The notes beneath the pieces were generated by a model that made no database searches, was not told the DNA's origin, and worked only from the letters and a program-made list of their open reading frames with translations. Source: Butyrivibrio proteoclasticus B316 (GTDB lineage Bacteria > Bacillota > Clostridia > Lachnospirales > Lachnospiraceae). Taken from it: DNA of 64,000 bases. The stretch spans positions 2,036,001 to 2,100,000 of the forward strand of contig NC_014387.1 of assembly GCF_000145035.1 (NCBI RefSeq), written 5' to 3'. The position numbers and the translations under genes were made by a program. Positions 5,547-52,487 of this stretch are shown piece by piece (the first letter of the stretch is position 1; each line of letters begins with the position of its first letter).

Positions 5547-6935
5547 TTATTTCAATGAGTAGTTTTTGATAAACTCCTCATTTATAGATATTACTTTCTT
5601 CATCGCATCCGGGCTTGGCGCTCCGATGGTAAGCCTCTTATTGACGCAGGTCTCAAGACTTATAGCATTATATATATCACTATCGAACATTTCTGAAAAG
5701 CTCTTTAGTTCATCTATTGCCAGCTCATCTATAGAACAGTTCTTATCAATGCAATACAAAACAAGTTTTCCGATCACAGAATGAGCATCTCTGAATGGCA
5801 TTCCCTTATTTACAAGATAATCCGCTGCATCTGTAGCATTGGTAAATCCCATCATTGCACTCTTTTCCATTGCGCTTTTATTGAATTTAATTGTCGCAAG
5901 CATATCTGTAAAAAGAGTAAGGCAATTAGATGTATTATCTACAGCATCAAAAAACGCTTCCTTATCTTCCTGCATATCTTTATTATAAGCAAGCGGAATC
6001 CCTTTCATCGTGGTCAAAAGAGACATCAGATCGCCATATACTCTTCCTGTCTTGCCTCTTACAAGTTCAGCAATATCAGGATTCTTCTTCTGAGGCATTA
6101 TGCTACTGCCCGTAGAATAAGCATCATCTATAGTTACAAATCTATACTCATTCGAATTCCAGATTATTACTTCTTCTGAAAATCTGGAAAGATGCATCAT
6201 AATTGTCGAAAGAGCTGACATAAACTCTATGAGATAATCTCTGTCTGAAACTGAATCCATACTATTGAGTGTTGGTCCAAAGAAATCAAGAAGCTCTGCT
6301 GTATATTCCCTGTCAAGAGGATATGTGGTTCCTGCAAGTGCTCCGGCTCCAAGCGGACAATAATTCATTCTGTTATAGATATCCTTCATTCTAAGAAGGT
6401 CTCTTTTAAACATCTCATAATAGGCGCCAATATGATGAGCCAGTGTCACAGGCTGAGCTTTCTGTAAATGGGTAAATCCCGGCATATAGGTATCAAGATT
6501 ATCTTTCATGATTCCATTAAGGCAGTTCAGCATATTCCTTAGAAGCTCAGACATATGCTCCACTTCGCCTCTTGCATAAAGCCTCATATCAAGCGCCACC
6601 TGATCATTTCTGCTGCGGCCTGTATGAACCTTTTTACCGGCATCACCTATTCTGTCGATAAGATTAGCTTCCAAAAAGCTATGAATATCTTCATATTTGG
6701 TAGTTATCTCAAGCTTACCATCAATTACGTCCTGAAGGATTGAGTCAAGCCCATTTACTATCTGCTCCTTCTCTTCCTCGGAAATAATTCCCTGTTTAGC
6801 TAACATGGAAGCATGCGCTTTACTACCGCGAACATCAACTTCCAAAAACCTCTTATCAAAAGTGATTGAAGCATTAAAGTTCCATGCAAGTTCATTTATA
6901 CTTCCAGTAAATCTTCCACCCCAAAGCTGCGCCAT
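5547..6935 (-). CDS. argH: Argininosuccinate lyase
   Basis: 462 residues, the normal length for the family. It splits argininosuccinate to arginine and fumarate in the cytoplasm. The fumarase/aspartase signature GSSIMPQKKNPD (residues 276-287), the THLQ histidine (H155) and the HTGRSRNDQ substrate loop (104-112) are all present. No argG or other arginine gene is next to it; the downstream partner is asd, so the pair links two branches of aspartate-derived amino-acid synthesis. The 400-bp leader holds an inverted repeat that could be an operator. Confidence 0.96.
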   Translation of the reverse strand: MAQLWGGRFTGSINELAWNFNASITFDKRFLEVDVRGSKAHASMLAKQGIISEEEKEQIVNGLDSILQDVIDGKLEITTKYEDIHSFLEANLIDRIGDAGKKVHTGRSRNDQVALDMRLYARGEVEHMSELLRNMLNCLNGIMKDNLDTYMPGFTHLQKAQPVTLAHHIGAYYEMFKRDLLRMKDIYNRMNYCPLGAGALAGTTYPLDREYTAELLDFFGPTLNSMDSVSDRDYLIEFMSALSTIMMHLSRFSEEVIIWNSNEYRFVTIDDAYSTGSSIMPQKKNPDIAELVRGKTGRVYGDLMSLLTTMKGIPLAYNKDMQEDKEAFFDAVDNTSNCLTLFTDMLATIKFNKSAMEKSAMMGFTNATDAADYLVNKGMPFRDAHSVIGKLVLYCIDKNCSIDELAIDELKSFSEMFDSDIYNAISLETCVNKRLTIGAPSPDAMKKVISINEEFIKNYSLK

Positions 6936-7338: not shown

Positions 7339-8709
7339 TTACTCATGCTTACAGTAGCTCCAGCACCACGCACTATTATCATAGTAGCATTCACCATTAT
7401 CAAGAACGATCGTATCATTCACATTTGGAAGAATAATCTTGCCAGCCTTCTTGGATAATAGCTGTTCCGGTCTAAAGCTATGAAGAGGGATAAGTGTTCT
7501 TGGTGCTATATCATCAACCTGCTTCCTAAGATAATAAGGTTCAGCATGGCCTCCTAGTCCGCATCTGACAACATTTATTCCGGCTACAGATAAAAGGTCA
7601 TAGAACTTAGCAAAAGATGGATCATAATCTCCAAGCGGAGCTCCATCCATGTGAAGATAAACAGAAATGACTCCTGCAAGTTCAAATAACTCATAGCTGT
7701 CCTTGTAGTCCTGCTGAAGAACATATCCTGACGGATTATCAAGGAGCATCTTTCTGGTTACCACCTGGCAATTCCTGGCAAGAGGAGCATTTATCTCTCC
7801 TCCTTCCGGCATGTAAACAGAAAATCTATCTTCTTTATAAAAAGCCGCAACATACTCAGCCTGAACAGGTGATAATACTAGTTCTCTTCCGGACTCTCTG
7901 ATTGCAGATACAAAATTATGAACACGTTCTACATTTCTATTATAGTTGTTAATGACTATGAGCCCCTGCTCTGTCTTGGCATACTCTTTCATCTTATCAA
8001 GAAGAGTAAGCTCTGATGTCTCTCTGGCAGGTCCCTCTAGTGAGAGAACATCAACATCGCCATGACTTATAGTCACTCCTTCACTTATCATAACATCAGC
8101 GCCCTTACATTTTTGAGCAAAAGCAGCGCTGATTTCAGGATGATAGCCATGGTACCTGTAATCACCTGTGTAGCAGATATTTCCGTCAGGAGTAGCTATC
8201 ATAAATCCACATGCCCCTATCACATCATGATCAACCTGAACGCAGGTAACAGTAATATCGCCAACAGTAAAGGATCCATCATAATCAACAGGAATTATAT
8301 TCTCATGCTCTCTTATTTCGAGCTCATTCATTACTCCAAGTTCATGATAAAGAGTAGCTGATTCTCTACTCATGTACACAGGCATTCTCTGGTCTAGTGC
8401 TCCAAGTCCGCCCATGTGATCTATATGCATATGAGATATGATGACAAATATCTCTTTATCTGTCTCACCATATCCCTTGATTTCTAATTTATTAGCTATT
8501 TCAGGCTCATAAATACCATCAATAGCATTAAGTACACCAAGCTTAACATAATCGTAAGCTTCCAAACCTTTTCGAAGTGGTACCTTGCTATCTATTCTGT
8601 CAGCATAGGCAAAACCAAAATCAAATAAACAAATAGCCTTATCTGTCTCTACCCCAATGACAGTTCCACCTATTTCTTTAAGCCCACTGTAAAACTTCAT
8701 TTTAGTCAT
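7339..8709 (-). CDS. Metallo-beta-lactamase-fold hydrolase, RNase J-like architecture
   Basis: 456 residues; GAGGTAA precedes the ATG. The zinc motif HMHIDH is at residues 93-98, with further ligands expected at VDHDV, GDYRYHG and the C-terminal TLIPLHSF. The spacing of a beta-CASP-like insert and the late PLHSF histidine resemble RNase J/CPSF-type enzymes, but the protein is shorter than RNase J and lacks its C-terminal domain. The substrate cannot be told from sequence. It sits downstream of an ABC importer operon but is separated from it by a strong terminator, so it probably has its own promoter or depends on read-through. A phosphodiesterase acting on the imported substrate is possible but unsupported. 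Confidence 0.8.
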   Translation of the reverse strand: MTKMKFYSGLKEIGGTVIGVETDKAICLFDFGFAYADRIDSKVPLRKGLEAYDYVKLGVLNAIDGIYEPEIANKLEIKGYGETDKEIFVIISHMHIDHMGGLGALDQRMPVYMSRESATLYHELGVMNELEIREHENIIPVDYDGSFTVGDITVTCVQVDHDVIGACGFMIATPDGNICYTGDYRYHGYHPEISAAFAQKCKGADVMISEGVTISHGDVDVLSLEGPARETSELTLLDKMKEYAKTEQGLIVINNYNRNVERVHNFVSAIRESGRELVLSPVQAEYVAAFYKEDRFSVYMPEGGEINAPLARNCQVVTRKMLLDNPSGYVLQQDYKDSYELFELAGVISVYLHMDGAPLGDYDPSFAKFYDLLSVAGINVVRCGLGGHAEPYYLRKQVDDIAPRTLIPLHSFRPEQLLSKKAGKIILPNVNDTIVLDNGECYYDNSAWCWSYCKHE

Positions 8710-29464: not shown

Positions 29465-29650
29465 ATTATCTTTTACCTCACTGTGCAGTACAAACATAGA
29501 CGGTGGTGAAAATATTCTCGGTAATTCATATAAAAATATATGCTACTTCATTATAATAATAGCATATATTTCACGCATACCACCAGTTTTTATGTACACA
29601 TACCAGATTGTTTATGAATATGTATTATAGATTGATTTCTTATTTACGTA
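29465..29650. promoter_or_regulatory. FIST-GGDEF upstream region with a perfect 12-bp inverted repeat
   Basis: AAATATATGCTA (29534-29545) and its exact complement (29560-29571) flank a 14-bp loop, about 70 bp upstream of the start codon. It may be an operator or a leader hairpin. Confidence 0.45.
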
Positions 29651-29828
29651 TTATGATCTTAGAGAGATTACTTGTTTAAGAATTATGATCTTAAAGGAAT
29701 TCTTTTTAATTATGATCTTATAGAGATTACTTGTTTAAGAATTATGATCTTAAAGGAATTCTTTTTTTATTATGATCTTATAGAGATTCTTTTTTAGAAT
29801 TATGTTTTAAAGAGATTCTTTTTAAGAA
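29651..29828. repeat. Six-unit degenerate tandem array (~30 bp unit)
   Basis: Units start at 29651, 29683, 29710, 29742, 29770 and 29800 with the shared core TTATGATCTTA (the last is degenerate). Two versions alternate, one continuing TAGAGATTACTTG and the other AAGGAATTC, so the higher-order period is about 59-60 bp. Not coding. Confidence 0.85.
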
Positions 29829-29878
29829 TAATACTTGAGGATAGCTTTTTTGCATATTTATATTTCTGCACCTTCATT

Positions 29879-30065
29879 TAATACCAAGATATTGGAAAAT
29901 CTTACTTTGGTATTACATAAATCAGTTTTATTAACTATTGTCCGTTCATTATGTAATAACAATGGGGTCATGATATTTGTATTGTTATTATTCTAGCGCT
30001 CAGGGAATCCTATTCAAAAAGAAAACGATAATAACAACTCAATGTATTTATATGGCTTGGTATTA
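29879..30065. repeat. Array A: three 37-bp elements at exact 75-bp period
   Basis: Elements at 29879-29915, 29954-29990 and 30029-30065. Each begins TAATACCA or TAATAACA and ends with TGGTATTA or TGTTATTA, separated by exactly 21 bp that differ between copies. Spacers are 38 bp and unrelated in sequence. The same element recurs at 51902-52203. No further copies are found at the expected phase on either side (29804, 30104). Confidence 0.85.
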
Positions 30066-51821: not shown

Positions 51822-51901
51822 GTAACTAATACCTTTGTCATTTTTTTATACTATCCTTTAGTATATAAATTAACTTTGCCAAACCATTTTCTTGCTCAAA
51901 A

Positions 51902-52203
51902 TAATAACATTAGGAACTAATGCTATTCTCTGGTATTATAATTTTTCTATATGAAATATCAAAATAATACCACAATATACAAAAACCGCTTCTTGATATT
52001 ATGAAAAGATCTTATAAAAAGATTTGCAGTGTCTTTTTATAATACCATACAAGCTATAATCAGGTTCTTGTTATTACAAATACTACATTTTTAGTCTTCT
52101 TATTCAAATATTGATAATACCAAACCGCCCATTTAATTTGTCATAGTATTATTTCAAATTCATCCATAATACCAAATCTTATCATTTCTATGTCATGGTA
52201 TTA
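51902..52203. repeat. Array B: five 37-bp elements with conserved inverted ends and variable cores
   Basis: Elements begin at 51902, 51965, 52040, 52115 and 52167, each exactly 37 bp long. Left ends are TAATAACA or TAATACCA (x4); right ends are TGGTATTA, TGATATTA, TGTTATTA, TAGTATTA and TGGTATTA. The 21-bp cores are all different. Spacers are 26, 38, 38 and 15 bp, so two steps are exactly 75 bp. A degenerate left half-site, TAATACCT, sits at 51827, again 75 bp before the first unit. No coding capacity; the element is shared with 29879-30065. Confidence 0.9.
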
Positions 52204-52289: not shown

Positions 52290-52487
52290 TTAATCCCAGA
52301 ACATCTCTTTACAATCAGGACAGAAATATTGATACTCGTGTGCATCCCAGAAGATCCATCTCGTAACGTCCCTCTCACCGCCTGTACGGCATTTGCGTTC
52401 ATGTAAGCAATGTTTCTTCATTCCATCAAGATAGAGTGATCCACCTGCTACTTTCTCAAGTTCTGCATCTTTCATAGCTGTATTCAT
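52290..52487 (-). CDS. 65-residue peptide with double-glycine leader and Cys/His core
   Basis: A short gene with a strong site (GGAGGGG, 6 nt before the ATG) and its own terminator. Residues 1-16, MNTAMKDAELEKVAGG, match the double-glycine leader of class II bacteriocins and Nif11-type precursors. The 49-residue core contains HCLHERKC and a C-terminal CPDC, a spacing compatible with a zinc ribbon or disulfides, and is rich in aromatics (RWIFW, YQYF). No peptidase-containing ABC transporter or modification enzyme is in the window, so secretion or modification would depend on distant genes. A role as bacteriocin, signal or RiPP is inferred. Confidence 0.65.
   Translation of the reverse strand: MNTAMKDAELEKVAGGSLYLDGMKKHCLHERKCRTGGERDVTRWIFWDAHEYQYFCPDCKEMFWD

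Follow-up and report, generated by a model that had tools for sequence, protein, structure and literature searches.

Among described systems, the nearest counterpart of the locus studied here is the REPtron, in which, according to the available parts of two papers (PMC8266576, PMC3116915), a RAYT/TnpA-REP transposase gene lies near its cognate REP, REPIN or BIME repeats, many copies of which occur elsewhere. The locus belongs to Butyrivibrio proteoclasticus B316 (genome G000), and by the window we mean the whole 64,000-nt stretch that was analysed (NC_014387.1, contig C1, positions 2036001–2100000, forward strand). We conclude that the reported feature is a dispersed copy of a site array belonging to a nuclease family without a Pfam entry. 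We give a probability of roughly 0.68 to the reading that such arrays are binding sites of a PD-(D/E)XK-like nuclease family and have spread as non-autonomous elements. Within this reading, the linked protein very probably reads the arrays, and the odds that it also drives their spread appear to us evenly balanced. A search of open-licence PMC papers returned no PD-(D/E)XK nuclease with cognate dyad arrays, which is weak evidence of absence, and no description of these dispersed intergenic repeats of Butyrivibrio.

The original prediction was of five units, each exactly 37 bp long and fitting TAATAMCA-N21-TRNTATTA, and all five were confirmed at their coordinates. Successive units lie 63, 75, 75 and 52 bp apart, a series that contains the two 75-bp steps claimed for it. 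A second array of the same family, missed in the first reading of the sequence, lies at 29879–30065 and has three units at steps of exactly 75 and 75 bp. The units of both arrays are:

51902..51938, no strand assigned: reported array, unit 1, a 37-bp dyad, exact match
51965..52001, no strand assigned: reported array, unit 2, right half-site TGATATTA, exact to the looser pattern
52040..52076, no strand assigned: reported array, unit 3, exact match
52115..52151, no strand assigned: reported array, unit 4, right half-site TAGTATTA, exact to the looser pattern
52167..52203, no strand assigned: reported array, unit 5, exact match
29879..29915, no strand assigned: second array, unit 1, exact match
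29954..29990, no strand assigned: second array, unit 2, exact match
30029..30065, no strand assigned: second array, unit 3, exact match

When the window was searched for TAATAnnA-N21-TnnTATTA with at most one mismatch, nine matches were found against 0.49 expected, and none of 100 shuffles reached nine. Scanning the window without any preset motif for arrays of at least three units recovered the same two arrays (51902–52203 and 29879–30065) and no third. The half-site TAATACCT noted earlier at 51827 is present, and by reading we saw no partner for it at 37 bp; it is therefore given no weight. On the minus strand at 52290–52487, a 65-aa ORF with the leader-like LEKVAGGS corresponds to the double-glycine-type peptide of the earlier reading, and a terminator-like hairpin follows it just ahead of the reported array (both by reading). 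Immediately left of the second array is a degenerate tandem repeat (about TTATGATCTTAtagagattacttgtttaagaa, 29650–29850); the arrays at L020 and L021 likewise have tandem repeats to their left.

Across the B316 genome (4,404,886 bases in four contigs, C1 having 3,554,804 and C2 302,358) the exact pattern occurs in 43 places, as against 4 for the reversed control. The matches group into about 12 intergenic arrays, two of them in the window, and single matches at 1072934 and 1495853 are regarded as chance. The main unit steps are 44, 52, 63–64, 74–76 and 85 bp, and decay of a unit leaves a few longer ones. All 12 arrays sit between larger predicted ORFs, some of them overlapped by unsupported short ORFs (up to 149 aa, in L018), and the genes flanking them, as judged by reading, have no function in common. 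A second dispersed repeat (tgttgcataaatgcaac...gcgagaatgtcgctcgcgacattct) adjoins three B316 arrays (L018 at about 5760–5830, L021 at about 7835–7890 and L022 at about 5990–6070).

A site model built from sequence only was then applied to 79 genomes of the genus (E ≤ 0.5, both strands counted). It found 77 units in B316, 31 in G067, 28 in G031, 22 in G071, 18 in G009, 14 in G076 and 9 in G077, and between 0 and 4 in each of the remaining 72, so that 7 of the 79 genomes are motif-rich. Their architecture varies. Tandem arrays in G031 and G067 have a period of about 53 bp, the elements of G009, G071 and G076 consist of three units separated by a 6-bp gap and a gap of about 37–48 bp, and G077 has steps of 52 and 74–76 bp, like those of B316.

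In six of the motif-rich genomes a protein of 252–262 aa adjoins an array. The B316 protein has 255 aa and is encoded outside the window, at C1 2166019–2166783, with arrays on both sides of its gene (2164775–2165003 and 2166896–2167125). Arrays flank the gene on both sides in G067 and G076 as well, two of these three genomes having an intervening ORF, and in five further Butyrivibrio genomes with the motif an ortholog (E < 1e-120) lies beside an array. The clade defined by this threshold has members in 7 of the 79 genomes. Six of these belong to the seven array-rich ones; the other is G001, where a variant array of period 53, TGATACCA-N21-TGGTATTA, lies behind the gene. The seventh array-rich genome, G077, has an array and no gene of this clade in an assembly that is 94% complete and in which a contig end lies 599 bp from the start of the array. 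At E ≤ 1e-10, 69 of the 79 genomes have homologs, with a maximum of nine in one genome, and several homologs of one genome have different motifs. One chromosomal neighbourhood holds both array and nuclease in three species (L037, L070 and L074); in G076 a segment with the nuclease and a dehydrogenase-like gene is inverted relative to the other two species and has an array at each end.

Homolog loci were also searched for inverted pairs that recur, whatever their sequence. At least three units were found in 21 of a first set of 54 loci, with a maximum of 2 in five shuffles per locus. Among 80 loci from named genomes, 41 had at least three units and 31 at least four; the controls reached three in 0 of 80 shuffled sequences and 1 of 24 natural segments, and this sole hit, in B. 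hungatei (L035:1997), looks like a genuine array. It extends over L035:1997–2182 as dyads of TATGCCTA at steps of 74, and a further dyad array, TTCGCTAT at steps of 51–53, was seen in Butyrivibrio sp. FCS014 (L067:270–462). Once duplicates were removed there were 125 distinct homolog loci, 63 of them with at least three units (four of these 63 come from the six loci where the link was first noticed) and 39 with two; the 62 loci that fall short of three units may truly lack an array or hold a decayed one. In the 63 array-bearing loci the median distance between array and gene is 97 bp, and it is at most 300 bp in 52. The array is upstream of the gene in 34 and downstream in 29, which argues that the arrays are not simply promoters. 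Most motifs in these homolog-linked arrays differ from TAATACCA, the motif of the family in the window.

Two other families are present in B316. The TTACTGCA family has four arrays arranged as two pairs, one consisting of near-identical direct copies about 4.3 kb apart that enclose its nuclease gene, the other placed around 2.3 kb of other genes. The TATGCCYT family has one home array, two single units on C2 with near-identical cores, and two further, weaker single matches. Dispersal is thus unequal between families, TATGCCYT being found mainly as its home array as against 12 arrays for the TAATACCA family. Both B316 (L140:5202–10028) and Butyrivibrio sp. VCB2006 (L149:4975–8429) hold the TTACTGCA array together with its nuclease and two more genes, much like a recently transferred cassette; the nuclease proteins are 97.6% identical and the arrays nearly so.

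The fold of the C-terminal half of the linked protein is PD-(D/E)XK-like and includes acidic residues that do not vary; both the core fold and the acidic catalytic residues that define the superfamily are present, and nuclease activity is predicted. E151 and D181 are conserved in all 63 array-linked proteins and E196 in 62, the remaining one having D, and the acidic nuclease residues are invariant in 72 of 72 homologs. The ExK motif usually has a Lys, and this residue is missing from its expected place. A Pfam search with five homologs returned no family at E ≤ 0.001 and, up to E 1, no HUH (Y1) transposase related to IS200/IS605 TnpA. The N-terminal fold resembles prefoldin-like coiled coils and not a known DNA-binding domain, and it is the more divergent part, with a mean pairwise identity among the 63 proteins of 0.24, as against 0.44 for the nuclease part.

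Motif sharing between loci tracks the N-terminal domain better than the nuclease domain. At whole-protein identities of at least 55%, 11 of 35 pairs have a common motif, with a maximum of 4 in 2000 permutations. Where the N-terminal identity is at least 70% this rises to five of six pairs, and where it is below 40% a common motif is found in 10 of 1898; a C-terminal identity of at least 70% goes with a common motif in only 8 of 33. The L123 and L125 proteins, for example, have nuclease domains that are 89% identical, N-termini that are 42% identical, and different motifs. Contrary to the trend, L117 and L122 have N-termini that are 70% identical and motifs that differ, and both of their arrays are weakly defined.

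To describe the site itself we aligned 51 units without gaps (43 from B316 and 8 from two relatives, decayed units excluded). The half-sites are TAATAMCA and TGKTATTA, inverted and without GTAG. Apart from them, the exact centre alone is clearly constrained, the share of A/T at columns 18, 19 and 20 being 98, 96 and 90%, with the two bases in roughly equal numbers; columns 9 and 29, strands pooled, are A/T in 84%. Columns 6 and 32 are non-complementary in 30 of the 51 units, which argues against a conserved hairpin. The interiors had been described as unrelated sequence, and this stands for most pairs of units inside one array, with the exception of the constrained A/T centre and of some units that are copies of one another: units 1 and 2 of L025 are inverted copies (Watson-Crick pairs at 15 of 21 positions and A.C or C.A at the remaining 6), and direct copies are found at units 1 and 4 of L016, L018 and L026 and at units 2 and 5 of L022. 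Such inverted and direct copies suggest that elements grow by duplication, and that the half-sites meanwhile resist decay.

Units are also phased along the DNA. Over 89 unit steps, collapsed per locus, the best period is 10.54 bp with R 0.75, as compared with a 99.9th percentile of R 0.324 in 1000 uniform sets, each evaluated at whichever period from 8 to 14 suited it best. Where units are at least 35 bp long (44 loci) the A/T fraction is 0.84–0.89 at the dyad, 0.43–0.49 at offsets 4–6 and 0.65–0.71 at offsets 8–10, a profile that may reflect DNA bent around a dimer; in the 19 loci with units found at a shorter register the A/T centre is weak (0.64–0.66).

We also considered an RNA element and rejected it. 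The plus strand of L025:5725–5813 can form a long, strong hairpin (z -6.2), which arises from the two inverted-copy units; all six of their A.C or C.A differences become G.U on the opposite strand. The other three of the four elements folded gave z of -2.4, -3.0 and -1.7, and an Rfam scan of the window returned no family.

Seventeen three-unit elements from three species, home arrays included, align from TAATACCA, preceded by AAA, to TGGTATTA, followed by TTT, and most have the ends AAATAATACCA...TGGTATTATTT. The ends are sharp and the DNA outside is mostly unrelated, with about 20 extra common bases on one side in four elements. Over all pairs, identity is 5939/6528 (0.91) in the half-sites, 3790/6187 (0.61) in the gaps, 3748/8218 (0.46) in the cores and 3539/10271 (0.34) in the flanks. 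For two arrays found in one species, the orthologous locus of close relatives has none. The first, in G076 ahead of a 222-aa SdaAB-like gene (by reading), is absent from G071, whose protein is 98% identical; the G009 contig ends there, so this comparison is with one species. The second, in G076 behind a FeoB-like gene (by reading), is absent from both G009 and G071 (98 and 97% identical). Both empty sites differ beyond the array and are thus not clean excisions, and at these two imprecise empty sites and the element ends no target duplication was recognised. At L077:6364–6663 in G076 the array begins just where an 88-aa ORF ends, so that the stop codon is provided by the first half-site, TAATAACA; the orthologous position in two relatives has no array.

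These observations can be joined in a single scheme. One dimer would probably read each 37-bp dyad through its two 8-bp half-sites, which would lie on the same face of the helix, and the DNA would bend at the A/T centre of the dyad; with units at whole helical turns, neighbouring dimers could line up along the array. Which sequence is read probably depends on the N-terminal domain, and the C-terminal domain would act as the predicted nuclease. Blocks of the array would have moved to other intergenic places as non-autonomous elements, both window arrays presumably being such copies, and our best guess is that spread proceeds by nuclease cutting at or beside arrays followed by repair or copying. 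In its fullest form, which we put forward tentatively and at slightly less than even odds, the scheme describes an undescribed Clostridia module that pairs a fast-changing N-terminal DNA reader with a PD-(D/E)XK nuclease, and whose cognate phased long-dyad array is coated as a bent, nucleosome-like filament and copied around the genome.

Several other explanations have to be weighed against this scheme. The arrays could be stable sites useful to the host, serving chromosome organisation, transcription insulation or gene control, with the linked protein a domesticated architectural binder and no selfish engine. We consider this unlikely, and it is the main rival because half-sites at fixed loci resist decay: at two loci common to three species they retain 0.83–0.94 identity, as against 0.31–0.80 for the cores, as if binding were selected while the array is resident. 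The helical phasing and A/T centre would suit an architectural complex, too. A host function is harder to reconcile with the restriction of the motif to few genomes of the genus (7/79), with the two arrays of one species that close relatives do not have, with the lack of a common function among the neighbours of the 12 B316 arrays (by reading), and with acidic nuclease residues that are invariant in 72 of 72 homologs and that an architectural role would not need. A role in self-protection, addiction or defence, where the array would titrate the nuclease or mark self and the nuclease would attack DNA when released or when meeting DNA of a foreign kind, seems to us improbable. It would account for a potentially toxic nuclease with an array near its gene on either side, and it gains from a nuclease domain that is related to the C-terminal end of PDC-S68, a candidate defence protein, and from the nearly identical TTACTGCA homologs and arrays of two species; on the other hand, no defence genes are evident beside the loci (by reading), and the dispersed copies, which lie far from the gene and vary between close species, are not required by it. 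The three window cores, out of eight, that were compared with viral contigs had no exact match there, a result that also counts against CRISPR-like arrays whose variable cores are targets or guides. For the latter, constant ends and cores of a guide-like length (21 bp) are set against the A/T constraint at the core centre, the lack of a conserved hairpin, cores repeated nearly unchanged in several paralogs (L105, L116), and the finding that L025 alone among the four folded elements gave a strong structure, and we regard guide arrays as very improbable.

The original prediction had offered three readings, namely paired binding sites for a dimer or oligomer, recombinase core sites whose interiors are exchanged, and back-to-back extended -10 boxes, of which we retain the first. 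The last is suggested by TGGTATTAT, which resembles the extended -10 consensus; a pair of promoters would not require units of exactly 37 bp or spacing by whole helical turns, homologous systems of the same architecture use TTACTGCA, TCCGACTA, CCTGTTG and others that are not -10-like, and the linked gene has its array downstream almost as frequently as upstream, leaving the chance of this reading at very little. Exchange of interiors between recombinase sites does not agree with cores that are mostly unrelated or else inverted or direct copies, or with a linked enzyme that is PD-(D/E)XK-like. A recombinase-like ORF does adjoin one other homolog (L142:7006–8214, by reading), and the array-linked protein itself is no serine or tyrosine recombinase. 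Paired binding sites are favoured by the strict dyads, the helical phasing, the A/T dyad centre and the change of motif with the N-terminal domain of the nuclease, which becomes the candidate protein that would bind them.

If the arrays are indeed spread as sites of this nuclease family, this would account for one class of scattered intergenic repeats in Butyrivibrio, and the module would be present in major rumen and gut bacteria. The dozens of protein-motif pairs make the specificity code of an uncharacterised DNA-reading domain directly testable, and genomes with up to nine homologs and different motifs would offer a naturally occurring set of nuclease-fused dyad readers that can be re-programmed.

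The module shares single features with several known systems. A Tn7-like transposon has the TnsB transposase and TnsC beside TnsA, and TnsB sites at its ends. The TnsA nuclease of Tn7 shows 12% identity and no sequence relation was found, nor was TnsB or TnsC noticed among the ORFs beside the loci, which were judged by reading only. Related nuclease domains occur in the PADLOC candidate defence families PDC-S68, PDC-S69 and HEAT_CxxC_PDDEXK; residues 128–253 of the B316 protein match positions 1090–1219 of PDC-S68 (E 3.9e-27), and the match is confined to the C-terminal end of the PDC-S68 models (1202–1273 positions), excluding the N-terminal domain found here. A CRISPR array has identical direct repeats with spacers matching foreign DNA between them, whereas here the constant ends are inverted. 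Like MITEs and the enterobacterial RU/ERIC-type repeats, as far as the accessible part of one source describes them (PMC2759123), the elements are short, dispersed, intergenic and geneless with defined ends (17 elements here), and they differ in being repeated phased dyads with no target duplication seen, linked to a nuclease and not to a known transposase. A MITE derived from an insertion sequence has terminal inverted repeats together with a target-site duplication.

The likeness to REPtrons, as these appear in the available parts of the two papers cited at the outset, is closer. In both, the enzyme gene is close to its repeats (52 of 63 arrays within 300 bp here), further intergenic repeats exist and are often clustered (12 TAATACCA arrays and four TTACTGCA arrays in B316), and enzyme and repeat co-diverge, seen here as motif sharing that rises with N-terminal identity. 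The same sources have an HUH enzyme and a GTAG-tagged hairpin palindrome in place of the PD-(D/E)XK-like protein and of the long dyad with its variable core, A/T centre and whole-turn spacing, and the occurrence of up to nine homologs in one genome, several with different motifs, is a further difference. Because the HUH enzyme and the GTAG-tagged palindrome are both missing, we do not file the nuclease arrays as a REPtron, although they would work like one. That related nucleases of gut Clostridia are often found next to an array whose motif is their own suggests a self-spreading genetic module of an unknown kind, which, if our reading is correct, would have arrived independently, through a different enzyme fold and a different logic of sites, at what REP sequences and RAYTs are thought to do.
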